From Liolophura sinensis (Eukaryota; Mollusca; Polyplacophora; Chitonida; Chitonidae): DNA of 64,000 bases. Under the pieces are notes generated by a model. That model was not told the origin of the DNA and ran no database searches. It saw nothing but the letters and a program-made list of their open reading frames with translations. Shown here piece after piece: positions 41,501 through 47,500 of this stretch (the stretch's first letter is position 1; every line of letters begins with the position of its first letter). The stretch is taken from NCBI RefSeq assembly GCF_032854445.1, contig NC_088300.1, forward strand, positions 37,290,458 through 37,354,457, given 5' to 3'. The position numbers were made by a program, and so were the translations under genes.

Positions 41501-44500
41501 AAAAGGATTTAAAAGAAGATAGAGCTGTTTAAAATTTATTGATCAGAGGCTGACATGAAACTGGTACAACTGATAACATAAATGAGTGACGACACTGTGG
41601 ACGGGTTTGAGTATTTTTGTCTTCTGTTATACGGGCACAGGGGATTTGCACATAAAGTTATGGCGGTAAAGGAATAAATTTTAGCCTAAGTTACAGGGTG
41701 TTCAAAAAGGGCAAGTAACAGGCTGTATACAGCTATCTACTGACGCCCCCGTACCCGCCTACTTTGAATATGCTTATTATTTAAATCAGTGGTAATTGTC
41801 ACATAATTACTTTCAATGTAGCTGTCTCCTTTAGAACTCTGGCCCTCTTCTCCAATTCTAAACAAAAACCCTGAACTTAGTCATACTCTGAGCATTTGCA
41901 TCATTGTCAGCATCCAGTAAGAGCTAGAGCAATGCTGCGGTAATTGTCAAAGGTGCGTCTTAAAAAGTACCACGTGCGAGACACAACAATAGTCCATGTG
42001 ACTTTTGAAATTCGTCTGATTTTATTGAAGGATTTCACTTTAAAGTTCCATCGGTATAGGTTGATCTTTCTTTGTAATTTAAGTATTATAAGGACTTGTG
42101 TATGGTTGGTTGTGCTGTGCGTAACTTGTTCTGTTGTTTGGGCTGTGCCTAACTTGTTCTGTTGTTTGGGCTGTGCCTAACTTGTTCTGTTCCTAACTTG
42201 TTCTGTTGTTTGGGCTGTGCCTAACTTGTTCTGTTGTTTGTGATACCAGAGCATGGTTTATTGCAACATTTATATTATTATAATTACTTATCGTGAAAAC
42301 AATTGTTTTCTTCTTTTTAGTGGGCCGTAATGGATCGGGAAAGAGTAATTTCTTTTATGGTAAGTAGGAATTATCTTTGGGTGGTTATTAACAGAGGTGT
42401 CTTGTTTATGACATGTACATGTATACTTGCCTTGTAGCAGTTGCTACATTCTCTGTGAGGATTTCAATCAATATCACAACTTATTTATTGATAAATAATG
42501 TCCAATAATTCCCTCAAACACTTGTGATCTAAATCCTTTCGCGTTACTTCAGATTAAAGGTGAACTGTCCTGGTAGATTGCAAAATTGACACAGTATATC
42601 CTAGAGGTATCTGAAACCGGGAGCCGAAGTGTTTTAAAGTATTGAAATCGCTAGATGTTGTAAAAAAACAATTTTTTTCAAGACAGATAGGCTGAGTTTC
42701 ATGAAGCTTGGTATTCTCTACATGCTTAGCTGCCCTTGATGTCCCCCTATTTGATGACGTCACAGTGGAGCAATGCCGTTTTGTGCAGCTATCAACTGTG
42801 CTAATCACACACCGAATTACGATGGAATTAGTATTTATGCCTTCCCATTGGACCTGTCATTGCGACAAAAATGGATAATCTCCATGCTGTGCCACCATTT
42901 CGTGCCGAATAAGCACTCAAAATCATGCTCCAACCATTTTGTGTGTTTTGACCCAGCTTACATGCTGGATTCCAAAGTGGAACGGAAAGTAAAAAAATCC
43001 GACGACAGTTGAAAACGGAAGCAGTACCTACTATTTTCAACATTCCTGGCCGCAAACGCAGTTTTCCGTTGTCAAATAATGTGGAGCTTTCAAAGAAAGA
43101 CAACGCTCTGAGGTAAGGCTGTGAAGTGGGCTTGTCTCGAGAATTGTAACGAAAACTGGGCACTGACTGGTATGAAGTCAGTTACCTGTAGTTTACCAGT
43201 TCCGAACAACTTTTAGTTCAGTTGTCATATCCAAATTCTATACACTGTCAAGTCACAGACGGAACCTCGCATTGTAGGCAAACTGTTCCTCATTCATGTG
43301 GCATATAAATTTGCATATATTCAAATAGCGATGTAAAATAAACATCGAATCTGCCACAATATTTTGTCGTAGGCTTAGTCAGATAGTTGTGATATCTGAC
43401 AAAGACACAACCAACAAATAAACAGTTTCTTCCTTGCTGAATGTTTCTGTTATAAAATTATCTTCAAATCTAAATACAGATAAGTTAAACTTGAATGACC
43501 AAAATAAAAGTTTTTTTTTTTGTGTTTTTTTTTTCATAATATACGAAAGTGATTTGGAAGTACTACTGATTTGGAACTGGTAAAGTAAATGTAGTGCAGA
43601 GTCTGTGGCTGCTTATAATGTTATAAAAATATTCATGGAAAAATACATGTTACACCATTACATATTGCTAATAACATAATTCATAGTAAATAGTGTGTTT
43701 TGTGACTGTGTTAGATAACTTTCAAATTTGTGTAATGTATTTTTAATGGTAATCTTAATTTTTGTGCAGAGGTTAAAATGTAAATAAAAGATTATCCCCT
43801 GTTGACCTTATGAGTTATTGTAAAAAGTTTCTGTTGGTGTAATGATTTTTCACATTGAGTAATCTAAATTCAGAATTGTTATGTGGTACGAATGGAGTTG
43901 AAAAAGTAGTGCTGTAAGAGAAATAAAGCAACATTAAAAACTTAATGTTAGGCATATAGCTAGTTTCAAAGTCTGATATTATTTTCTATGTGAACTTGTA
44001 GCAAATGAAGCTATTCATTTGAATTAGTACATTTAATTTAATCATTAAAAAATCTTTTTCTTGTTTCCCCACATTCTTGAAATGGATCTGAAACCTGCAG
44101 ATGGTCGTGGGTTGAGCAGCCCGCTTTCCTCCCACCATAATACTGGCTGCTGTAGTATAAGTGAAATACTCTTGAGTATTGTATAAAACACCAAATAAAT
44201 AATTAAATAAAACAAAATACATTGTTTACTTCGGTTTCAGCACGTGGAGAAAGTTATAAGGGCAGTATATACCAGGGGACAGGAATTCCCAAGTTATAGT
44301 TCAGCAAAGAAATCAAAAGTTCCTAGAATTATTCCCTCCCCAGTGTCCAGTATATATGTAAAAGTCAATAAGGACACAGCAGTAAATAATCACGTAACAC
44401 GATTTAATTAAAATCAATGGCCTCAAATTTTGGAAAATGATGGAAAACAGATATTGAAAACTGGTGAGAAGTTCTGCATGTACTTTCAGAACAAAGTAAG

Positions 44501-47500
44501 GGGGTATGCTAAAATGATGTGTTGTGGGGTTTTGTTTTTAGGAGCTCCAAAATGTTACATGAAAGTGAACTAACCAGGTCCAGTTAAAAGACGAGGTCAT
44601 TTTGGTTGTCCTTTTAGATAATACATTTTAGCACCTGTTGGGTTATATTTTGTTAACTTATTGCTAATGCTACCCATGGAGTGATTTTGTTTAAGTGTGT
44701 GGAATTGAAAATAAATTTATGTATTTTCCACCTCTGAGATGACCATGTGTGAACTGTATATTACATATGTTTTACTGATGATTTTTCCATCTACTCATAT
44801 GAACAAAAACAAGAATATGGGAGTTGTGGCTACAACTTCAACTCCATTCATTGTTTGTGAGGCCAGGTTGTCATTGATGGCACTGGCTGGTCTCCTGCCA
44901 TTTAGCAATATGGCATGTATTTTGGTCTTGTTTATTACATGAATGTATATGTATGTAATAAATTGTGGTAAACCTGTGCATTTGAAATATTGCTCTTTAG
45001 TATTTAATGTAATTAAAATCCTCAGAGTAGCTGACTGAGGAGCGTGGGTTTTCTCCCACTGTAATACACTGGTGCTGCCCTCGTATGCCCGAAATACTGT
45101 TCAGTATGGCATTAACCTCAAACTCTGAACTGCTGAGGGTACCAGGGAAGTTATACACATTTTAAGATGGAAAAATGAATTAATTTAAAGTGCTTTGGCT
45201 GAAAGAATCTCGTTCGAGAGAATGATGATAGTCCTGAAAAGGGCTGTTGGAAAAGTGTAGCCCTGAAAAGGGCTGTTGGAAAAGTGTAGCCCTGAAAAGG
45301 GCTGTTGGAAACAACACTTGAGCTCATGGTCTTGGGTACTTTAAGTTCGTGTATTACTCAGAAGGGAAACGTGTCCGGATGGGGCTAACCACGCAGGCTG
45401 AAATGACTTTTTGGACTTTATACCCTAGAAGTTTCCAAATGTATCTGATGAAGCGTCGTTATGCCACGTATCTGTAAATTCTGAAACAAAAGTGACAAAA
45501 TTCAAGAATAAGATAAATTCCCAGTATGTATAAAACAAGAGTCTCTGATGAGACAGTGGTTCTAATAGAGGGTAGAAAAAAAATTATTACCATGTTGATT
45601 GAATCTAAACACCTTTCTCTTTGCTATTAGCTGAACTGACCCTTAAACTTAAAACTTTGAGCTTACATTCAACAACAAAAACAGAGCTGAAGTACCGCTG
45701 ACTTAAAAGTGACACCCAGGAAAGACGGCCTCCATCAGCTACCTCCCCCTCCCACAACGTTAGCTGCGCTACTGGTGTCCTGTGCTATAAGTTTGGAACA
45801 CATGGAATGAGAGAAAATATATATGATGAAAGAAGAAATGGAGTTTGTTAGGATTCACATGCAACTCGAACTTACCAGTCAGTAGTTTGGAGACAAGCGG
45901 GTACACCCATCCCAGCATCATCGTGGCTGTCTGAAGATTTACTGGTCAAATGGCTTGTCTTCATAGGTTCGAACTGATACGGTCAAATCCCACCCTCTCC
46001 AAGATTTAAAGGTTCTCCGTCTGAAGATTAGGAGTAGGAAAACTCTGTGCCCTCTGTGTCGCTGATCAAATCCAATATTGCCGACATTGTGCATCTTAAA
46101 CCAGTGTTCCACTGTTACGTCACGCATATTTGGCACGCTAAGGCCATTCAAGGGCAGACATGCAATGTTGGTTTTTTGTATCGGAATTAATTATATTTTT
46201 AATTTCTACAAGTAAAACAAGTTGCCAGATGCATTTTTTTTGTTTTCATGATTTTTTTCTTTGTCACAGGTATACCATTCAGTTAGGTAAAGTGAGAAAT
46301 AAAACCAGGACAGTTCACCTTTAAGTTTGAAAACAAGCCAGATCCATACATTAGATATGCACATGCACTGATTTCCTGGATTCTGATTTTGGTTAGGTTT
46401 TCTGTAATGTGCTCATATCTTGAAAACTACGTTGATGGGAATCCTGAAACCCACAGGTTACAGGCTATATATGTGAGATCTCTGATGAGATAAGAAATCC
46501 AAGCTTATCAGTGCATATTTATTGTATTCTGTATGTCTCATTGTTTGTAGATTTTTTGGCAATAACTGCTTTAAATATGGTCTGATTTTGTAAAATTTTG
46601 TGTTCAGGTCATTTTGTGGCCCCTCAGATCAAGTTTGAAAACCAGCCAGATCCATGCACAAAACCTGTGCAGAGAGTGATTTATGATTTTCGTTGTTGTA
46701 CCTGAGTTAGACATTTAAGATGGTAATTTAACTTATGCAGTACCCTGACAGTCGGCACCCAATATCAGGGAAAGCAATGTTAAGCAAAATGTTACTGAGG
46801 GATATCTCAAAAAGTAGTGCATTTATTGAGCTCAGGGCTTGCACACATGTAGATCACAAGAGGGATACGGTGTGTGCATGTTAAATGCTGTAAATTATCA
46901 AATTCATGACTTAGTGTTTTTTATATTAGAATCAAATTTAAACCAAATGTGGGGCTTCCGTGGCTGAAGGGGTCAGCAAGCCAGTGTGGCGCAATGACCA
47001 AGTAGCCTCGCACCAGTATGGAGGCATCTTCTCCATTTGCACGTGGGAAGATCTACCAGCAACCTGCGGATGGTCATGGGTTTCTCATGGGCTCTGCAAG
47101 GTTTCCTCCCAAGTGCTGGCTGATGTGGTATAAGTGAAATTTTTTTGAGTACAGAGTAAAACACCCATCAAATAAATAAACAAAAAGTTAAGAGAGGTAT
47201 CTGACCAATTTTTACAAAAAAATGAAAATACAGAAATATCTGTCAATGCTAAATGTGGGCAGACTTCATTACACATTGTGATACACTCACTTTCAAGTGT
47301 GTGGTCATATGTGTTTTTTTACAGATAATACACACAAACACACGGCCTTCCTCGCAAGCACCGCCATCCCCCTACCCTCACACATTGATAACCAACGTAC
47401 CTGCCTCAAGCCTTGCTACATGAAGATTCCAGAGGAAACACATATGATTGATTACGAAGACCAGTGAGAAGACAAACCCTATCAAAAAATGTCATATTAC

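Follow-up and report, generated by a model that had tools for sequence, protein, structure and literature searches.

A decayed THAP-bearing element, very probably of Kolobok type, and a younger counterpart in the chiton Liolophura sinensis

A probable Kolobok-type element in an intron

The window analysed here, a 64,000-nt stretch of the chiton Liolophura sinensis genome (contig C6:37290458-37354457; coordinates of the element are given as window positions), contains a 3,763-bp element between TTAA sites (42554-46324) that is very probably a long-dead, non-autonomous cut-and-paste DNA transposon of Kolobok type and that probably moved in trans. A first-pass annotation of the window had noted a likeness to Kolobok; we uphold this assignment because of the TTAA target, the AG...CT termini and the presence in the same genome of an element with the same layout that contains Kolobok-type parts. 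The element lies in an intron, on the sense strand, of a gene that we take to be SMC3 from its peptide motifs. A motif search of the window located the flanking exons, one of which contains GRNGSGKSN and ends at ~42359 while the next begins near 47615, in agreement with the intron setting given earlier.

Element ends

The element begins and ends with perfect 17-bp terminal inverted repeats (TIRs), AGGTGAACTGTCCTGGT on the left (42558-42574, plus strand) and ACCAGGACAGTTCACCT on the right (46304-46320, minus strand), bordered by TTAA at 42554..42557 and 46321-46324, respectively. Counting TTAA, the two ends are complementary at 21/21 bases, and the boundaries proposed in the first-pass annotation proved exact. 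Allowing up to three mismatches, the terminal 21-mer occurs twice in the window (0/100 shuffles), and the exact 17-mer TTAAAGGTGAACTGTCC was found 16 times genome-wide versus 0 for the reversed control. Elements with AGGTGAACTGTCC ends are referred to as the window family.

Further inside there are subterminal repeats of two kinds, CTGCCCTTGA-type and TGACGT(C/A)ACAGTGG. The left subterminal inverted repeat (17 nt, 42723..42739, plus strand) is 82% complementary to the right one (46148..46164, minus strand; consensus alignment), and sequence and alignment reveal an additional inner inverted motif, TGACGTCACAGTGG, on the left (42755..42768, plus strand) and its counterpart, CCACTGTTACGTCA, on the right (46109..46122, minus strand). 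The inverted similarity claimed earlier for these inner regions was borne out: with the terminal bases excluded, the arms beat 1000/1000 single-base shuffles in the consensus of 19 short copies (see below) and 999/1000 shuffles in the window copy itself.

Target duplication and termini distinguish the window family from P elements and piggyBac. P elements duplicate 8 bp of their target, which the 4-bp TTAA duplication does not match. The termini of piggyBac have the form CCY. A piggyBac-type miniature inverted-repeat transposable element (MITE), having nothing but the target in common with Kolobok, would account for the TTAA duplication; it is highly improbable here, given that the window family retains a THAP exon and that its termini AG...CT (AGG...CCT) differ from the piggyBac pattern and are of the 5'-RR/YY-3' kind that, in combination with TTAA, sets Kolobok apart from piggyBac in the accessible part of PMC9587614.

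Copies across the genome

The left 247 bp matched at least 30 places including the window, corresponding to about 28 other copies (two matches are pieces of one copy). The existence of a family with both ends, as postulated in the first-pass annotation, is supported. Twenty of the ~28 other copies were fetched, giving 21 elements together with the window copy. All but one of the fetched copies (19/20) are short (0.7-1.06 kb); the single long one, L010, has the same coreless interior as the window copy, and the first 1 kb of this interior (43090-44090) occurs elsewhere in the genome only at L010. In the short copies, the sequence breaks at element positions 532-534 in 10/19 cases and resumes at positions 3507-3513 in 15/19. 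With breakpoints thus in common, most of them seem to derive from one deletion, and L013, which keeps sequence from element position 3410 onwards, looks like a product of separate origin. The 5' region gives a star-like tree that groups the window copy with L010 (91/92); this tree contains no well-supported fork, with bootstrap values not settled.

A search for window-family TIR sites allowing two mismatches returned 228 sites in all versus 150 for the control. Pairing those with 0-1 mismatch by eye yielded 11 elements, which measure 285-3,771 bp; none of the end-paired elements listed exceeds the window copy in length. One THAP fragment of the window family (L039) stands in a locus that showed no pair of ends.

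In 14 of the 21 elements, the positions of both ends could be established (the other seven are outside this count); 10 of these 14 have TTAA at each end. One copy, L023, is inserted in a dispersed repeat. When its flanks were joined with one TTAA, 38 of the best 40 of 114 matches were other loci that are unbroken across the junction, and the remaining two were the flanks themselves. One such unoccupied site, in the window (20958-21052), can be aligned to the joined flanks with no gap where they meet. This segment is a copy of the high-copy dispersed repeat that was the target of the L023 insertion.

The THAP exon and its decay

The THAP exon, which the first-pass annotation had correctly placed just inside the left subterminal repeat, extends from an ATG to a putative splice donor GTAAGG at 43113 (42773..43112, plus strand; based on PF05485 and open reading frames (ORFs), the donor by eye). 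The match itself (42773-43009; Pfam PF05485, E=2.9e-8) has THAP2 (2d8r, E=2.1e-9) as its best relative of solved structure, and C2CH, P, W and F residues were recognised by eye. Unnoticed earlier, the frame is broken ahead of the AVPTIF box, which sits in another frame; near the box, the window copy and L010 have a 19-bp gap in common relative to the short copies.

Divergence from the short-copy consensus amounts to ~9-11% outside CpG. At the three THAP codon positions it is equal (0.092/0.090/0.092 outside CpG), and the 84-aa consensus THAP frame is intact in only 1/19 short copies. From these two observations it follows that the window-family THAP decays neutrally after insertion.

Search for a transposase

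The interior of the window copy (~2.9 kb, 43113..46063, plus strand) contains no recognised transposase core. Searching its 10 interior ORFs against Pfam yielded no such core, and in particular no DDE_Tnp_4 or YqaJ match; a Lyase_N match (E=0.21) was below its cut-off and is taken as chance. When 18 frames of the young element described in the next section were searched by tblastn against the window and L010 elements, no core was detected (best E=0.19). In the control, a young element mutated by 20%, 18/18 frames were recovered in 5/5 trials, which gives the power of this search within the family only. The 19 short copies are too short for a transposase core. Genome-wide, we found 31 matches to Kolobok-type cores and 8 places matching PF20478 (KolX), none of them at a window-family copy.

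The transposase body had been described as lost or fragmented. Loss was supported, whereas mere fragmentation in the window copy was not, as the interior of L010 is equally coreless. Since this interior is common to both copies, the core loss most simply predates the window copy and L010. With no core found alongside window-family ends, we file the family as Kolobok-like and non-autonomous, and its superfamily placement rests on ends, target and THAP rather than on a transposase of its own.

L047, which resembles a host THAP gene, was rejected as a transposase source. A search with PF20700, intended to lead to a partner of THAP, retrieved KolobokP instead; the two same-strand THAP matches nearest to PF20700 (~9-11 kb away, on C2 and C4) lie on the downstream side, by eye and among the matches listed.

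Other features of the interior include a tandem repeat with a 29-bp unit present three times (45229..45315; two units in L010) and a segment missing from L010 (44175..44873), where pieces corresponding to element positions 1293-1622 and 2320-3771 are adjacent. A dispersed repeat of ~120 bp (44092..44219) has eight further matches in the window (e.g., 55053-55182 and 59008-59135) with 72-81% identity and is frequent in other fetched loci as well.

A younger family in the same genome

The element of the same layout is 7,051 bp long (C10:50419-57469) and has the ends TTAA-AGGAATACTGTC. A part of 4.9 kb was read (L048); the end at C10:50419 and the KolX match are known by position only. The L048 THAP exon matches PF05485 with E=9e-14, and the open frames downstream of it carry GGDARCD, LITDRH, DVWH, HIRNIHTHP...CRH (H2CH-like) and GLEVYHN. 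These motifs were assigned by eye, with putative splice sites, after PMC9587614 and PMC6004289, the latter of which gives THAP, DDE and H2CH as motifs of the Kolobok transposase in its accessible part. A P2RX7_C (KolX-like) match lies inside the element on the opposite strand, and 6/8 KolX places in the genome are near (~8 kb) an opposite-strand THAP match, by eye. Judged from these motifs, the C10 element carries parts of a Kolobok-type transposase, as in the Kol0 Koloboks, which encode a second protein, KolX, besides the transposase (PMC9587614, accessible part).

The end pattern of this young family was found at 45 sites (control: 0), among them 16 pairs spaced <20 kb. The THAP exon is present in whole or in part in 14/16 of these, the core in 2/16 and KolX in 1/16. 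Seven pairs of 1,905-1,929 bp possess THAP and no core, and all seven have a stop-free THAP frame of 112-114 aa. Among 12 copies, identity of the THAP exon is 99-100%. Some of the 31 core matches fall in three elements that belong to the young family or are close to it; more distant ones occur on C4 (375-377 kb), on C13 (2.56-2.62 Mb) and in other places. Among the matches listed, G000:C13:2563322-2627512 forms a tandem-like array in which THAP exons and Kolobok-type core places number six each, at mostly ~10-kb spacing, plus one KolX-like match. On C16 (G000:C16:599-435454), at least nine THAP exons with 122-aa frames were observed.

Like the window family, the young family has TTAA, an AGG...ACTGTC terminus (identical at 9/13 of the terminal bp), a left-end THAP exon with putative splice donor, and short derivatives that keep THAP. 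This layout also bears on a different origin of the window family, namely that an unrelated TTAA element captured a host THAP exon. The genome does offer material for such a capture, with at least 127 THAP exon matches and at least one of them in an apparent host gene (L047). Yet part of the exon is found in the same place in 20/20 fetched copies (a sample biased for THAP retention, because the fetching query reached 28 bp into the exon), and the THAP exon occupies a corresponding position in an element of this genome with Kolobok-type parts, which leaves capture a very slim chance.

Placement among THAP transposons

Several results weigh against a Kolobok origin of the window family. TTAA is altered on one side in 4 of the 14 copies, and the unoccupied site in the window has TACA at the target position. 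The full transposase that the first-pass annotation proposed to look for was not found as far as we searched, no core being found in any searched copy with window-family ends, an outcome named beforehand as speaking against the reading. The L048 core itself stayed below the Pfam cut-off (PF20700, E=0.0033, 16.9 vs 26.5 bits), its DDE motifs being assigned by eye. The subterminal DNA of the two families is not clearly related (31/500 shuffles reach the score), and the window-family THAP is 39-43% identical to Kol0-like THAP (query 3-64) versus 44-47% to ISL2EU-like THAP (query 7-92).

ISL2EU elements duplicate 2 bp (AT) and use a DDE_Tnp_4 transposase. A derivative of an ISL2EU/IS5-like THAP transposon would fit the last comparison, in which ISL2EU-like THAP is at least as close as Kol0-like THAP, and the genome contains near-identical copies that encode a 527-aa THAP/DDE_Tnp_4 protein. 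These have THAP in common with the window family and differ in their transposase, their YqaJ nuclease and, presumably, the length of the duplication. Given these ISL2EU features, the 4-bp TTAA duplication and the AG termini argue for Kol0 over ISL2EU, while THAP similarity does not choose between them; with the interior ORFs devoid of DDE_Tnp_4 and YqaJ in addition, we regard an ISL2EU-like ancestry as very unlikely and retain the Kolobok assignment. The 527-aa proteins were also considered as a source for the window family and dismissed as ISL2EU-like. They belong to young elements (L037, L038, L046) that encode a THAP-HTH_Tnp_4-DDE_Tnp_4 protein plus a YqaJ nuclease frame; L037 and L038 are 99.4% identical over 4 kb, and L046 is a broken copy of the same.

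Among the closest parallels are the Koloboks of Xenopus (XKol, T2-MITE; Kol0 element Kolobok-1_XT), which, in the accessible parts of PMC6004289 and PMC9587614, resemble the window family in TTAA, AG-type termini, a THAP with AVPTIF and short non-autonomous relatives whose ends are of the same type. The chiton 7-kb element extends the likeness to Kol0 by a KolX-like domain and a DDE/DxxH-like core, whereas the window family yielded neither a transposase core nor KolX. Furthermore, a putative splice donor comes after the window-family THAP, in contrast to the Xenopus transposases, which are listed as long ORFs of ~2.1-2.6 kb (PMC6004289, accessible part).

KolobokP is present in the same genome with long open frames encoding a Mutator-like transposase and, on the opposite strand, a His-Me endonuclease domain. 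Unlike the window family, it has no THAP within ~10 kb upstream of the transposase, by eye and among the matches listed, and it is described as having long direct repeats at its termini, without a strong preference for particular targets (PMC9587614, accessible part). A BLASTP comparison of the Kol0-like core with KolobokP returned nothing (best E=3.4). KolobokP-like elements with a 689-aa Mutator-like transposase were seen at L040-L045 and at G000:C9:31864581-31878122; L040 is ~97% identical to five other such loci over 4.1 kb, and four matches on C9 stand in tandem with 4,132-bp spacing.

Possible origin and retention of THAP

We envisage an ancestral THAP-Kolobok that would have lost its transposase core, while its ends, its subterminal repeats and its first exon, the one encoding THAP, remained. 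A THAP-Kolobok transposase encoded elsewhere may then have acted in trans, binding the ends, with the subterminal repeats as its likely binding sites, and excising the element, which would have reinserted at TTAA under duplication of 4 bp. Internal deletion, for instance by abortive gap repair, could have given rise to the short subfamily.

The retention of THAP in short derivatives raises the question of whether it was selected, in that a stand-alone THAP protein would cover the ends and act as a repressor of the transposase. Retention in two families, with a THAP match overlapping 11/11 end-paired window-family elements (by eye, some matching only a piece), and the stop-free frames of the seven 1.9-kb young copies are in favour of this. 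Conversely, window-family codon positions diverge equally and few short copies preserve the frame, two elements of 285-286 bp retain just a 29-aa THAP piece, the fetched sample favours THAP-keeping copies, and 2/16 young-family end-paired elements lack a THAP match. Moreover, at 99-100% identity the intact frames of the young family need no selection, and keeping the 5' end may serve transposition alone. Selection for such a repressor is therefore quite unlikely in our view.

It is a conceivable though unlikely idea that the multiplied non-autonomous elements in two distinct chiton Kolobok-type families, which retain THAP without the core, could be self-encoded DNA-binding repressors and a counterpart of the KP elements of Drosophila.

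In a survey of molluscs with one chiton, Kolobok was found almost exclusively in bivalves (PMC10294476, accessible part), and the words chiton and Polyplacophora are absent from the main text of PMC9587614. We found no description of the window family or of THAP-keeping Kolobok derivatives from chitons in the literature covered, a scope that most subscription papers and Repbase fall outside. The elements reported here document Kolobok-type transposons of both old and young age in a chiton, one of them a 7-kb copy in which THAP occurs together with a KolX-like domain and a DDE/DxxH-like core, and they provide a two-family case for asking if the retention of THAP in non-autonomous elements has a function.

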